A DNA stretch of 64,000 bases. It comes from Carnobacterium funditum DSM 5970 (GTDB lineage Bacteria; Bacillota; Bacilli; Lactobacillales; Carnobacteriaceae). How positions within the stretch are numbered: position 1 is the stretch's first letter; every line of letters begins with the position of its first letter. The DNA lies in contig NZ_JQLL01000001.1 in the NCBI RefSeq assembly GCF_000744185.1, positions 1,178,001 through 1,242,000 on the forward strand. Direction: 5' to 3'. A program made the translations under genes and the position numbers. This document shows positions 42,783 to 54,698 of this stretch, piece by piece. The notes under the pieces were generated by a model. The model was not told the DNA's origin, searched no databases, and saw only the letters and a program-made list of their open reading frames with translations.

Positions 42783-43550
42783 CTATTCCGTTATTTCAAC
42801 GGCATGAATAAAGAGTCTACCATCTTTAACATCGTAATTACAAGTAACAAGAGTTAAGATATTATCTTCTGGAGAAACAGGAGTATCTGATGAGAAAATG
42901 GATTCATTTTTTAATGTTTCAACAAAATCAGGAAATTCATTCTCTTCAAAGGATACATCGAGAAATTTAGGGTTAGCATCAGAAGGGTGTACGGAAAAAA
43001 TTTTATACGTTCGTTTTGTAAAGGAATCAGTAAAAACAAATTCAGAATGATTCGTTAAAAAATCTTCTGATAGATAACGATCCAAATCCTTGAACATTTG
43101 TCCGTATTTAGCGTAATGACCATAAAGAATTGTGTGCTTGTCCAGACCCATACCAGCGTTTCGATAGTCCATAAAGATTGCACCTAAAACATCTTCTTCT
43201 TTATAAAAGTTATGTTTTAAATAAAATTCGTTATCTTTTCCGCGTACAACTGGATAATCAACAGCTGTATCCTCAATATTTAGCCAACCAACATAATCAG
43301 AGTTGAGATCATAATATTCTGTTGCCGCGTTTTTTTCAAATATTATTTCTTCTTCAGCATTTTTTTCGGTATCGGTTTTTGTAGTAGAAGTGGCTTCTTT
43401 TGGGACTTCATTATCTTTAGCAGTTGTTTGAATCAGAGCACTTTCTGGAACTTTAACGTCTTTGCGTTGAGCCGTTACAGTATTGTAATAATAAACGATT
43501 TGCACTAATAGTAGACTAGATAAAATCGCTAACCAATATTTTTTTTTCAT
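42783..43550 (-). CDS. Class B sortase
   Basis: A 255-residue membrane-anchored transpeptidase with an N-terminal helix (about 6-24) and a Thr/Lys/Glu-rich linker. The sortase domain shows SDYVGWLNIEDTAVDYPVVR (about 95-114), the catalytic His in ILYGHYAKYG (about 152-161), the Cys in LVTCNYDVKDGRLFIHA (about 233-249) and the Arg in the same block. The wording fits class B. I chose ATG 43550, 6 bases after GGGGGA. It faces a fasciclin surface protein whose tail carries a sortase-like signal, so that is its likely substrate. Confidence 0.9.
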   Translation of the reverse strand: MKKKYWLAILSSLLLVQIVYYYNTVTAQRKDVKVPESALIQTTAKDNEVPKEATSTTKTDTEKNAEEEIIFEKNAATEYYDLNSDYVGWLNIEDTAVDYPVVRGKDNEFYLKHNFYKEEDVLGAIFMDYRNAGMGLDKHTILYGHYAKYGQMFKDLDRYLSEDFLTNHSEFVFTDSFTKRTYKIFSVHPSDANPKFLDVSFEENEFPDFVETLKNESIFSSDTPVSPEDNILTLVTCNYDVKDGRLFIHAVEITE

Positions 43551-43585
43551 GTAAATCCCCCATCTTCTTTTTTCGGAGTTATCTT

Positions 43586-43609
43586 TTGACAACGGTTACG
43601 TTATGATGA
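43586..43609 (+). promoter_or_regulatory. Candidate promoter of the fasciclin gene
   Basis: -35 TTGACA (43586-43591), spaced 18 bases from TAGTAT. TATAAC lies two bases further on. It sits in the divergent gap between sortase and fasciclin genes. Confidence 0.45.
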
Positions 43610-43672
43610 TAGTATAACTTATGTAGACAGAGATCACAAAATATAACTCTGTCGCAAAGGAGATGGATAGAA

Positions 43673-44311
43673 ATGAAAAAGTTTTCGAAGATTGCATTTT
43701 CCCTTGTCACTCTACTGTTACTATCGCCAATTTTTGCCGCAACTGCTAATGCAGAAAACCATATTACAGATGACGTAGTAGGTGTCGCTCTAGGTAACCC
43801 TGATTTCAGTATCCTTGTATCGGCTCTTCAAAAAGCTGAACTAGTTGAAACACTTCAAGGAGACGGACCATTCACTGTATTTGCACCAACTAATTCCGCA
43901 TTCGAAAAACTGTTAACAGAATTAGATATTACAGCAGACGAATTACTAGCACAACCTGATTTAGCAAAAGTTCTTACCTATCATGTTGTTCCTGGAAAAG
44001 TTATGGCTGCTGATTTAACAGATGGAATGAACGCTGCAACAGTAAATGGTGAAGAGTTAATGTTTGATCTTTCAGGAGATCCAATGGTTAACAAATCTAT
44101 GATTACTACAACAGATATTGAAGCAACAAACGGTGTTGTCCATGTTATTGATACTGTCTTGGTTCCTTCAGACTTCATGTTACAAGAAGTTGATATGGAA
44201 GAAACAACAGTGGCAAAAACAGGCCTTGAAAGTAGTACACCGCTTCTTGTAGCTATGTTGGTTACAGCTAGTGCACTTGTTTTTATGGTTATCAAAAAGA
44301 AAAAAGCATAA
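43673..44311 (+). CDS. Secreted fasciclin-domain surface protein with a noncanonical sorting signal
   Basis: A 212-residue protein. It has a signal peptide (about 1-26, ending ATANA). One fasciclin (FAS1) domain follows: FSILVSALQKAELVETLQGD, FTVFAPTNSAFEKL, LTYHVVPGKV and NGVVHVIDTVLVPSDF. The C terminus is VAKTG, then a hydrophobic stretch (about 189-206) and KKKKA. This is the three-part layout of a sortase substrate, with VAKTG in place of LPxTG. FAS1 domains mediate adhesion. The divergent class B sortase is the likely anchor enzyme. AAGGAGATGG precedes the ATG. Confidence 0.88.
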   Translation: MKKFSKIAFSLVTLLLLSPIFAATANAENHITDDVVGVALGNPDFSILVSALQKAELVETLQGDGPFTVFAPTNSAFEKLLTELDITADELLAQPDLAKVLTYHVVPGKVMAADLTDGMNAATVNGEELMFDLSGDPMVNKSMITTTDIEATNGVVHVIDTVLVPSDFMLQEVDMEETTVAKTGLESSTPLLVAMLVTASALVFMVIKKKKA

Positions 44312-44347: not shown

Positions 44348-44397
44348 AAACAAAACCCTTTGAGAGACTATCTTTATTTTCTCAAAGGGTTTTGTTT
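44348..44397 (+). terminator. Terminator after the fasciclin gene
   Basis: AAACAAAACCCTTTGAGA and TCTCAAAGGGTTTTGTTT form an 18-bp perfect stem. Repeat R3 copy b follows directly. Confidence 0.9.
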
Positions 44398-44534: not shown

Positions 44535-44897
44535 TGGAGACGGCGAGAGTCGAACTCGCGTCCAAATATGTCGGCACCTAGATATCTACGCTTATAGTTA
44601 TGTTATTTAAGGTTCGCTGGGTATCAGCCACACAACCGGCATCATACTTTGCTAGTCTGATGATCTCTTCTAAAACTTGCAGACGGAAACTTTTAGCGTA
44701 TCCCACTAATTATAGGACCCTTGCTCGAGCACATGGGCGATGCCGAGAGGATCTACACTAAGCTGTTATTACGCAGCTAAAGCGTAAGAGTTGTTATTGT
44801 TTTTATCAGTTGTTTTAACTGTAACGTTTTAACGTAGACGTAACCTACGAAGCGCAACCCAAGCTCGACCTATACCTGTCGAATCCGTAACGCCCCC
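44535..44897 (-). ncRNA. ssrA: Transfer-messenger RNA (tmRNA)
   Basis: A 363-base tmRNA that rescues stalled ribosomes with SmpB. The 5' end GGGGGCGTTACGGATTCGAC pairs with the 3' end GCGAGTTCGACTCTCGCCGT...CTCC through the acceptor stem, and the T-arm loop TTCGACT is intact. The tag frame reads ACTGATAAAAACAATAACAA then CTCTTACGCTTTAGCTGCGT AA, giving a peptide ending DKNNNNSYALAA, typical of Lactobacillales. CCA is not encoded. smpB lies 7 kb away in the same window. Confidence 0.96.
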
Positions 44898-45128: not shown

Positions 45129-46406
45129 TTAATCAAAGCCTGCGACTTCATCTTCTTTAACGAAACTAAAGACAATCATCCCTACCAATAGTAGTACAGC
45201 AGATACGTAAAAGCCTATTTGCATGGATCCGAACTGGTCTGTAATCCAACCTGTTAAGAAAGGGGCTATAATCGAACTAGACATTCCGATAAAGTTATAT
45301 GCACTTAGAGCAGTAGATAGAGAGCCTTTTGGTGCGTTTTTAGCAACAAATGCTACTAGAATAGGGTCAAGGGCTAATTTGCCAGTTAAGCCGTAAGCGA
45401 TTAAAGCAACGATCAACAATGTACGATCTGTTACGAAAGCAATAGAGAAAATAGAAATCATTGCGATAGGAACTAGAATGTAAACAAATATTTTTGTACG
45501 ATTAACTTTATCAGATAAACGAGCAAATATTAATGCTCCAGGAATAGAAGCCCAAGGAACTAGGGAAGAAATGAAACCGACGCTTGTTCCTTCAAAACCA
45601 CGTTCCACCTGTAAGAATTGTGGCAGCCATGTGAGTACGACAAAGAATCCGTACAGTGAACAAAAACATAAGATAAAGGTTAAGAGTAGATTACGATTTT
45701 TAAAAATAGAAGTGAGCGATGCTTTTTTAACCACTTCAGCAGGTTTATCATCATTTTCAGTAGATGCATTTTGGTCTTCTGGACGAACAACTTTTTCCTT
45801 TAGCAGAAAAAAGAATAACAACCCTATAATAACGGTAGGAATTGCCATTATTTTAAAGGGTAGTGTCCAGTGTTCTCCGTTTTCTAAAACTAATTTACTA
45901 GAAAGTAACTATCCTGCAGAAGTTCCCAAGGCCATTCCACTATTTATAATGGCATTTCCTAGTGTTAGATTCTTTGTTGGAATTGCTTCAGTTGATAAAG
46001 CGTATTGCGGACCGTAGTATGCTCCTTGGCCTGCCCCTGTAAGAGCCCTAAATATCATGAACATACCAAAACCTGAAAGAATCCCGCTAAAGTAGGTTGT
46101 GATTCCCATTATAACAAAACCAATTGAAATAACCATTTTTCTTCCATACTTGTCACCTATCACTCCAAAAGGAATTTGTGTGACTGCGTAGGTTAAGAAA
46201 AAGAAACTGCTGACTAATCCTAATTGTGAATTATTTAAGCTAAATTCTTTAGCGATTTGTGGCATTAGAGGATTTAAAATCGTTCTATCTGCATACATTA
46301 ATACCCATCCGAAGAAAAACAAGGTAACTGTTTTCCACCAATATTTTTCTGATACGTAAGTTGCCCCATTGACTACTCTGAGATTTGCTTTATTCTTTTG
46401 ACTCAT
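45129..46406 (-). pseudogene. MFS transporter (anion:cation symporter type) with one internal TAG
   Basis: A single frame of 425 codons encodes a 12-helix major facilitator: FFFGWVLMYADRTILNPLMP near the start, GVIGDKYGRKMV loop 2-3, LTGAGQGAYYGPQYALSTEA, then after the break LPFKIMAIPTVIIG, RLSDKVNRTKIFVY and GLTGKLALDP. TAG at 45909-45911 (after GTSAG) is the only interruption and nothing is shifted. The wording resembles the ACS group (hexuronate, ureide or phosphate-ester substrates). With the allD-like remnant upstream, a ureide transporter is plausible. It is a recent nonsense mutation, a sequencing error, or a readthrough case. Confidence 0.8.
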
Positions 46407-51816: not shown

Positions 51817-52275
51817 TTATCTTTCTCTTAATGATCGGGCCAAATCGCGTTTTTGATCTTTGCGCTTCAAGTCTTCTCGTTTATCATAATTTTTCTTACC
51901 CTTTGCTACGCCAATCAATACTTTAGCATAACCATCTTTAATGTAGACTTTTAATGGAACGAGTGTGTTTCCACTGCCCTTCATTTCATTTTCTAGACGT
52001 ACTATTTGTTTTTTATGCATCAGTAATTTCCTCGTTCGTAAAGGATCATGATTAAATTGATTGCCTTGATCATAAGGACTAATGTGAACATTGTGCAAAA
52101 ATATTTCTCCATTACGAACACGTGCAAATCCATCTTTTAAGTTTATTCTAGCTGCTCTAATCGATTTTATTTCTGTCCCTTTAAGAACAATTCCTGCTTC
52201 AACTGTGTCTAAAATAGTATAATCAAATCGTGCTTTTCTATTTTGAGCCAGCAGTTTCCCTTCTCCTTTGGGCAT
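51817..52275 (-). CDS. smpB: SsrA-binding protein SmpB
   Basis: A 152-residue beta-barrel protein that carries tmRNA into stalled ribosomes. Signatures: [20 protein letters not shown] near the start, [13 protein letters not shown] (about 28-40), [14 protein letters not shown], and the basic tail [15 protein letters not shown] that enters the mRNA channel. Ribosome binding site AGGGAGG precedes the ATG. It lies 20 bases after rnr, the typical Gram-positive order. Confidence 0.96.
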
Positions 52276-52295
52276 GTTTTTGCCTCCCTACTTGC

Positions 52296-54698
52296 TTAAC
52301 TTTTTTTCTTTTTAGGTTTCCCTTTTTTGGCAACGTCTTTGTAAAAGGGCTTGTTTTTCTTTTTATCATTGGAATTAGTATTTTTAGTATCTTTATCTTG
52401 ATAACCTGTTTTTTTATTCGTTGACCCTTTTGATTGTTTATATTTGTCCGGTTTACGATTTCCTGTCTTCTTTTTATCTTTATCGCCACTTTTTTTCAAT
52501 TGTGAAAAAGAATCTGCTTTCGGTGCATCAGGATCTGGTATTAGTTCAAAATCGATTTCGCGTGTTTCAGGATTGGCTTTGGTCACTCTAATTTCAACTT
52601 TTTGACCAATTCGATAAACAACTCCTGTACGTTCTCCGACTAACATCAGTTGCTCTTCAACGAAATTATAATAATCATCTTTCATATTGGAAATGTGGAC
52701 AAGCCCTTCAACTGTATTCGGTAATTCAATGAACAAGCCAAATCTCAATACTGAACCAATGATTCCTTGGTAGGTTTCGCCTACCTTATCCACCATATAT
52801 TCTGTTTTCTTCAATGCATCTGTTTCTCTTTCAGCATCTACTGCCCGACGCTCCATTTTAGAACTTTGGATAGCAATTTCAGGAAGCAATCCGCTCCACT
52901 TAGTTTTTTGATCTGAACCTGTTCCATTTTCACTATATGAACGAATCAAACGATGCAAGATCAAATCAGGATAACGTCGGATGGGTGATGTGAAATGAGA
53001 ATAATAGTCAGCAGCTAATCCGTAATGTCCTAGAGGCTCAACATCATATTTCGCTTGCTTCATACTGCGTAACATCATTGTTGAGATAACCGTTTCTTCA
53101 GGTTTACCTGCTACACTTTTCAAAACTTTCTGTAAATTTTTTGGTGATACATTTTCACTTAGTCCTGTTACGGAGATACCAAATGCCGTCACAAATTCCA
53201 TAAATCTTTGCATCCGATCACTATCAGGCTGTTCATGGACGCGGTAAATCATTGGAACTTTCATACGTGTGTAATGTTCTGATACCGTTTCGTTGGCTGA
53301 AAGCATGAAGGACTCAATGATTCGCTCACCAATGCCTCTTTCACGTAAAACAATATCTAAGGGATGTCCTTCTGGATCGACAATAATCTTGGCTTCTGGA
53401 GATTCGAAATCAATCGCTCCTCGAGTTTTTCTGCTGCCTTCTAAAATCTTATGCAACTCGGCCATTTCTTCAAACATTGGTACAAGGTCTTCGTTTTCTT
53501 TGCGAACTGTCTCATCTTTATCCATGATTATTTGATTTACTTGTGTGTAGCTCATCCGACGATAAGAACGAATGATACTTTGGAAGATATCGTGCTTCAC
53601 AACTTTACCAGTTGCATCAATTTCCATTTCACAACTCATTGCTAATCGATCTTCATTTGGATTCAAAGAACAGATGCCATTTGATAAGCGATGTGGCAAC
53701 ATAGGAATAACTCGATCGGTTAGGTAAACACTGGTTGCTCGATCGTAAGCTTCCATATCTAACGGGCTATTTTCTGTTACATAATAAGATACATCTGCAA
53801 TATGAACACCTAACTTAAAGTTACCATTTTCTAGTTTTTTAACGGTTACCGCATCATCCAAATCTTTAGCATCTTCGCCATCGATTGTGACGACTATTTC
53901 ATCACGTAAATCACGACGGTTATCCATATCTTTTTCAGTTATTTTATCTGGCACTTCATTTGCTTGGGTCATCACTTCATCAGGGAATTCAGTTTGAATA
54001 CCGTGTTTATAAACAATCGTTAAAATATCAATACCCGGATCATTTTTGTGTCCGATAATGGATTTGACAATTCCTTGCATACTTCTAGGAAACTCGCCGT
54101 CTGGATACAAGGTTATTTCTACCAAGACAATCGCTCCATCAACTGGTTTGATTCCTTTTTCTTCAATAAATACCCTGAAATCAGTTAATTTTTTATCTTT
54201 TGGTTCAATATAGCCATATAACCCAGTTTCTTCAACGCCTTCTTCGGTATAAGCAAAAAATTCTCCAACTAGTTGAGTGAATTTGCGTTCTATAATCGCT
54301 TTAACACGTCCTTCAGCACCTTTATCAAACCAAGGCTCAGCTGGACGAATAATATCCACCGTAACAATATCTCCATCTAACGCGAAATTTGTTTGATTCA
54401 TAGGGATATAAATATCATTTTCTTCATCTTCAATGGATACAAAACCAAACCCTCGGTCACTTGCTCGGAAAATACCAGATATAACCGCGTCTTTTTCCGC
54501 TAGTTTAAATTCACCTTTTTTATTTAGAAAAACAGTCCCTTCACGTTCCATTTCAGCTAATGTTGAAACAAGCATTTTAAAATCAGCTGAACTAGTTAGT
54601 GCCATTCCTTCACTTATTTTTTTCACTTTAAAAGCTTTTTGTTCTTGCCCATTCATATACACTAAGATAGCTTCTTTTATTGTTTGATTATTTTTCAT
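52296..54698 (-). CDS. rnr: Ribonuclease R
   Basis: An 800-residue 3'-5' exoribonuclease that degrades structured RNA and works with tmRNA in mRNA clearance. Domains: N-terminal helix-turn-helix and cold-shock domains (GIFRASDRGFGFVSIEDEEN, about 72-91), RNB catalytic domain with IDGEDAKDLDDAV (about 272-284, catalytic aspartates) and HIADVSYYV, then SPIRRYPDLILHRLI, S1 domain (about 635-720) and an exceptionally lysine-rich tail of about 75 residues. It ends 20 bases before smpB and starts 5 bases after est. Confidence 0.95.
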   Translation of the reverse strand: MKNNQTIKEAILVYMNGQEQKAFKVKKISEGMALTSSADFKMLVSTLAEMEREGTVFLNKKGEFKLAEKDAVISGIFRASDRGFGFVSIEDEENDIYIPMNQTNFALDGDIVTVDIIRPAEPWFDKGAEGRVKAIIERKFTQLVGEFFAYTEEGVEETGLYGYIEPKDKKLTDFRVFIEEKGIKPVDGAIVLVEITLYPDGEFPRSMQGIVKSIIGHKNDPGIDILTIVYKHGIQTEFPDEVMTQANEVPDKITEKDMDNRRDLRDEIVVTIDGEDAKDLDDAVTVKKLENGNFKLGVHIADVSYYVTENSPLDMEAYDRATSVYLTDRVIPMLPHRLSNGICSLNPNEDRLAMSCEMEIDATGKVVKHDIFQSIIRSYRRMSYTQVNQIIMDKDETVRKENEDLVPMFEEMAELHKILEGSRKTRGAIDFESPEAKIIVDPEGHPLDIVLRERGIGERIIESFMLSANETVSEHYTRMKVPMIYRVHEQPDSDRMQRFMEFVTAFGISVTGLSENVSPKNLQKVLKSVAGKPEETVISTMMLRSMKQAKYDVEPLGHYGLAADYYSHFTSPIRRYPDLILHRLIRSYSENGTGSDQKTKWSGLLPEIAIQSSKMERRAVDAERETDALKKTEYMVDKVGETYQGIIGSVLRFGLFIELPNTVEGLVHISNMKDDYYNFVEEQLMLVGERTGVVYRIGQKVEIRVTKANPETREIDFELIPDPDAPKADSFSQLKKSGDKDKKKTGNRKPDKYKQSKGSTNKKTGYQDKDTKNTNSNDKKKNKPFYKDVAKKGKPKKKKS

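Follow-up and report, generated by a model that had tools for sequence, protein, structure and literature searches.

Two divergently oriented genes in a 64,000-nucleotide stretch of Carnobacterium funditum DNA (the window) very probably form a self-contained, dedicated and mobile anchoring cassette, transferred as a unit among unrelated Gram-positive bacteria, in which a class B sortase (SrtB) would cleave a small fasciclin (FAS1) surface protein and attach it to the cell wall. This reading is preferred because the two genes co-occur and remain adjacent despite changing surroundings, the paired sortases fall in one clade, and the pair has both tail-less fasciclins as natural controls and an instance of joint loss.

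Organization of the locus

The srtB gene (42783-43550, minus strand) encodes a 255-residue class B sortase with an N-terminal membrane anchor, while the fasciclin gene (43673-44311, plus strand) encodes a surface protein of 212 residues, presumed to be the sole substrate of the enzyme. Both reading frames are present and intact. The sortase probably starts at the ATG at 43550 and not at the listed TTG at 43592, judging from the sequence: the ATG is preferred because a GGGGGA ribosome site lies just upstream of it and orthologues align from MKKKYW, and no ribosome site occurs at the TTG. From this ATG to the fasciclin gene the spacing is 122 bases, and this divergent intergenic region (43551-43672), common to both genes, shows strong conservation across five species from two genera whose outer flanks differ. 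Within it lie a TTGACA/TATAAT-like promoter oriented towards the fasciclin gene and an inverted repeat of 7 bp, GACAGAG / CTCTGTC, at 43626-43632 and 43647-43653. In one species both arms have changed with pairing kept (GACAAAG / CTTTGTC), and this retention of pairing through changes on both sides suggests an operator or a leader hairpin. Inspection also located a probable terminator hairpin (AAAACCCTTTGAGA...TCTCAAAGGGTTTT) 3' of the fasciclin gene (44352-44393, plus strand); the hairpin scan listed no terminator because the loop is too long for it.

The cassette is flanked by a sirtuin-type deacylase gene and by a tmRNA gene (44535-44897, minus strand) with the tag DKNNNNSYALAA, which lies about 7 kb from the smpB/rnr-type genes (51817-54698) and does not adjoin them. 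Further along, an MFS transporter gene (45129-46406, minus strand) carries one in-frame stop after residue 165, with the frame otherwise unbroken on both sides. A tmRNA-linked genomic island was rejected as a general explanation, given that tmRNA adjoins the pair here and at none of nine related loci scanned.

The class B sortase

Several results assign the enzyme to class B. The srtB product scores 181.1 bits against TIGR03064 (E=2e-53), over the curated cut-off of 153.75, and its sequence matches solved SrtB structures in the PDB. A fold search with a structure model of moderate confidence (mean pLDDT 69) returned SrtB for each of the first 19 chains, with an E-value of 3e-19 compared to 3.5e-8 for SrtC, and the model contains the class-specific beta6/beta7 helix, as a helix at residues 206-216 between strands 179-190 and 231-236. 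The catalytic residues His145 (YGH; codon 43116-43118), Cys237 (TLVTC; 42840-42842) and Arg245 (DGR; 42816-42818), all encoded on the minus strand, are invariant in an alignment of 14 paired SrtBs. The divergent class B sortase proposed in the preliminary description is thus borne out by the score and the triad. That description had also considered a membrane protein left beside a broken sortase; the intact reading frame and triad rule out a pseudogene. No Asn-type signal (NPxTN/NPxTG) accompanies the enzyme, the P4 residue being V, A or I in 24/24 tails; such a signal is typical of class B and not strictly defining, and the class B enzymes of C. difficile and S. pyogenes depart from it too. 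At the alignment position of Tyr167 of C. difficile SrtB, against which the P4 residue has been modelled (PMC5118464), most paired SrtBs carry F or Y, which could suit a hydrophobic P4.

Phylogenetic analysis placed 28 paired SrtBs on one side of a branch with support of 96/85, apart from the enzymes of Listeria, B. anthracis and C. difficile; some of the deeper nodes of the tree connect long branches and are uncertain. The SrtB of Salinicoccus (Staphylococcaceae) grouped with Carnobacteriaceae-type sequences, a placement suggestive of horizontal transfer, albeit on a long branch. Distances between sortases correlate with those between the fasciclins (Mantel r=0.80, with 0/5000 permutations as high), and the sortase is the less conserved partner, with a mean pairwise identity of 46% against 79% for the FAS1 part.

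The fasciclin protein and its sorting signal

The fasciclin consists of a signal peptide ending in ANA (MKKFSK...ATANA; 43673-43753), recognised by inspection and kept in the layout of orthologues, a single FAS1 domain (43799-44167; PF02469, E=4e-35, 121 bits against a cut-off of 22) and the C terminus EETTVAKTGLESSTPLLVAMLVTASALVFMVIKKKKA. Here the pentapeptide VAKTG (44210-44224) is followed by a hydrophobic segment (44240-44293) and the positively charged tail KKKKA (44294-44308), all on the plus strand. The orthologues are 56-91% identical, and the order of pentapeptide, hydrophobic helix and basic tail is conserved in 24 sequences, so that the C-terminal architecture first described for this protein is confirmed, in an intact reading frame. 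Against LPXTG models the C. funditum tail falls just under the curated cut-offs (Pfam, 13.6 bits against 20; NCBIfam, 14.1 against 15.9), and a VPETG orthologue clears that of Pfam at 20.5 bits.

Orthologues were located in Lacticigenium, Alkalibacterium, Proteiniclasticum, Salinicoccus and two clostridial/Tissierellia MAGs, with further relatives present in the family and order of C. funditum. Their alignment, which the preliminary description had proposed for fasciclins beside class B sortases, shows a conserved tail with the motif [V/A/I][P/A]xTG[I/L/V/F]. P4 is V in 21 tails, A in two and I in one, and P3 is P in 13 and A in 11; a variable residue, the invariant T and G, and then I, L, V or F complete the order. 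No column other than the T and G is invariant across the 24 orthologous tails, and the tail is therefore not a product of chance. VAKTG itself was found in the window and three close relatives, and VAQTG or VAETG takes its place in others; Alkalibacterium-like genomes and Salinicoccus have VPxTG, Proteiniclasticum has APxTG and a Tissierellia MAG has IPETG. The suggestion of a novel signal consequently holds in part: the tail does differ from the NPQTN type, but VAKTG is a local version of [V/A/I][P/A]xTG and no fixed new motif.

It is very unlikely that the C-terminal helix simply retains the fasciclin in the membrane and that the adjacent sortase acts on something else. The scores below the LPXTG cut-offs in C. 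funditum, for a tail whose cleavage is a prediction, would agree with such an arrangement; yet invariance is confined to the T and G while the helix varies, the co-occurrence with SrtB is exact, and no other strong tail-like signal appears in genomes with a sole sortase.

Distribution and adjacency

Of 398 genomes in the order, 22 carry a close SrtB and exactly these 22 carry a full-length tailed fasciclin; none has just one of the two intact. The close SrtBs score at least 303 bits, the next SrtB 209, and the tailed fasciclins at least 335. The hypergeometric probability of this coincidence, near 1e-36, is too small a value because the genomes are related, and 22/22 does not amount to 22 independent events, co-occurrence being in part a matter of common ancestry and linkage. 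In at least four genera (g1, g3, g11 and g58) some species carry the cassette and others do not, with both genes always together, which reduces this effect and does not remove it. All loci read share the divergent-neighbour arrangement with flanking genes that change between species: the sirtuin-type gene and tmRNA in C. funditum are replaced elsewhere by quinone-reductase-type, MFS, ABC transporter or pyrR genes, as expected of a mobile cassette. SrtB also adjoins the tailed fasciclin in the clostridial Proteiniclasticum, the Tissierellia MAG and Salinicoccus, and it does so at every tailed-orthologue locus obtained from the ortholog search. In the wider phylum this fasciclin type is rare (6/399 genomes). 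Tailed fasciclins without an SrtB within about 1.5 kb do exist, with LPETG in G421 and MPNTG in G531; these motifs are nearer the canonical LPxTG, and two cases prove nothing. Two loci contain an additional tailed fasciclin close to the sortase (L009, 5205-5855 and 6838-7590; L011, 5992-6627 and 7509-8144).

The same genomes also encode fasciclin paralogues without a tail. These are lipoproteins whose sequence stops at the point where a tail would follow, and no SrtB adjoins them; the genomes with only lipoprotein-type fasciclins (G230, G203 and G139) are without a close SrtB. C. funditum has a second fasciclin of this kind about 5 kb before the window (G000:C1:1172272-1172709, L003), a lipoprotein lacking a sorting signal and with a domain approximately 81% identical. 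Joint loss was observed in G140, whose genus code (g20) is shared by several carriers. There one deletion has removed the N-terminal part of SrtB, the intergenic region and all of the fasciclin except its tail; the residual SrtB is degraded, the catalytic His region also being lost. In this relic (L158, 7243-7904) the shortened SrtB directly abuts the leftover fasciclin tail, and a transposase-like ORF lies nearby. Ordinary linkage of two unrelated surface genes, with no enzyme-substrate relation, would by default produce co-occurrence and co-divergence, and the intergenic region common to both genes would fit it as well. Nonetheless, the pairing is retained in different genera, families and classes even as the remaining neighbours change, and the tail-less fasciclins lack an adjoining SrtB, making such linkage a most improbable explanation.

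Genomes with a sole sortase

In the 2.35 Mb genome of C. funditum, searches detected one sortase, this SrtB, and the fasciclin tail as the only convincing sorting signal. A Pfam Sortase search found a single sortase, always the paired SrtB, in each of five genomes (G000, G005, G008, G161 and G797), where a tail profile gave the fasciclin as the only strong match (E=9e-12 or better; next best 0.05), within the reach of profile searches, which might overlook a signal of unusual form. Neither a sortase nor a tailed fasciclin was found in the relatives G006 and G010. Processing of the tail by SrtA was discarded for C. funditum, no second sortase having been found in its genome. Most other carriers have additional sortases, up to seven genes per genome, and these could process the tail signal instead.

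The preliminary description had envisaged a one-enzyme, one-substrate pair, and the 22/22 co-occurrence, constant adjacency and sole-sortase genomes support it. The contrasting view is that SrtB is a general sortase for which the fasciclin is just one of several substrates. C. difficile SrtB, the only sortase of its genome and predicted to have eight substrates (PMC4155245), offers the precedent, and the C. funditum genome likewise has one sortase; nevertheless, the five sole-sortase genomes yielded no second convincing signal, and the tight linkage of SrtB to the fasciclin, with which it is gained or lost jointly, leaves this view improbable.

Proposed anchoring mechanism

Under the dedicated cassette model, the signal peptide would direct export of the fasciclin, and the C-terminal helix and lysines would retain it in the membrane. 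By analogy with known class B enzymes, SrtB would cut between the T and G of VAKTG and join the threonine to peptidoglycan, leaving the small FAS1 domain covalently fixed in the wall. The acceptor group and an adhesive or ligand-binding role of the FAS1 domain are, like cleavage and wall attachment, part of what we infer. In C. funditum the enzyme seems to be without another substrate and the fasciclin without another enzyme. Since the mature fasciclin is small, it may be buried in the wall instead of projecting outwards, a placement also proposed for IsdC.

Comparison with known systems

The pair resembles the SrtB-IsdC systems of S. aureus and B. anthracis in its class B fold, catalytic triad and dedicated enzyme beside a small substrate. 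Those systems serve the haem-binding IsdC through NPQTN or NPKTG in an iron-uptake locus, whereas the present cassette has a FAS1 domain, [V/A/I][P/A]xTG and no adjoining iron genes, its neighbours being the deacylase and tmRNA genes; the SrtB of G001 and G002, by contrast, adjoins transporter genes. No pilin genes were recognised by inspection among the neighbouring ORFs, and a haem/Isd or pilus locus was ruled out for want of such neighbours. C. difficile SrtB is also the sole sortase of its genome, recognises a motif ending in xTG and has a beta7/beta8 stretch of the same length, but it lies near the paired clade and outside it, and it cleaves (S/P)PXTG and has several diverse predicted substrates (PMC4155245). 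The S. pyogenes class B enzyme Spy0129 accepts EVPTG, VPPTG and VVPTG, a precedent for valine at P4 (PMC3019223), although it is a pilus sortase that polymerises pilins. Alanine at P3 has a precedent in L. monocytogenes SrtB, which takes NAKTN (PMC3208642) but has Asn at P4 and belongs to a separate clade, with Listeria-type loci in the order adjoining transporter genes. Ala also replaces Pro at P3 in the LAXTG signal of class E sortases (PMC5148588), which are a different class, from Actinobacteria, while P and A alternate here within one class B clade.

A dedicated SrtB-substrate pair, a sole-sortase SrtB, P4 valine and P3 alanine are therefore each known singly. The open-access literature searched (subscription journals being outside its scope) yielded no description of the fasciclin-sortase pair, this combination of features, a FAS1 substrate or the mobile two-gene form. 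The anticipated widening of class B specificity would extend to [V/A/I][P/A]xTG, but Spy0129 (PMC3019223) and the Listeria NAKTN signal (PMC3208642) had already taken the class beyond haem proteins and NPQTN.

Implications

The literature presents class B sortases as little studied and links their best-known members to haem proteins (PMC11987632). The approximately two dozen natural enzyme-signal pairs described here, with one small substrate and either Pro or Ala at P3, provide a direct route to signal choice in this class, for which the sole-sortase genomes are clean test cases. An enzyme with its own [V/A/I][P/A]xTG signal could also serve protein ligation. It is reasonably likely that these sortases constitute a distinct class B clade with a pocket taking a hydrophobic P4 and Pro or Ala at P3, and that, as a horizontally mobile pair with a co-evolved private signal, the two genes would place a FAS1 protein in the wall of hosts otherwise devoid of sortases.
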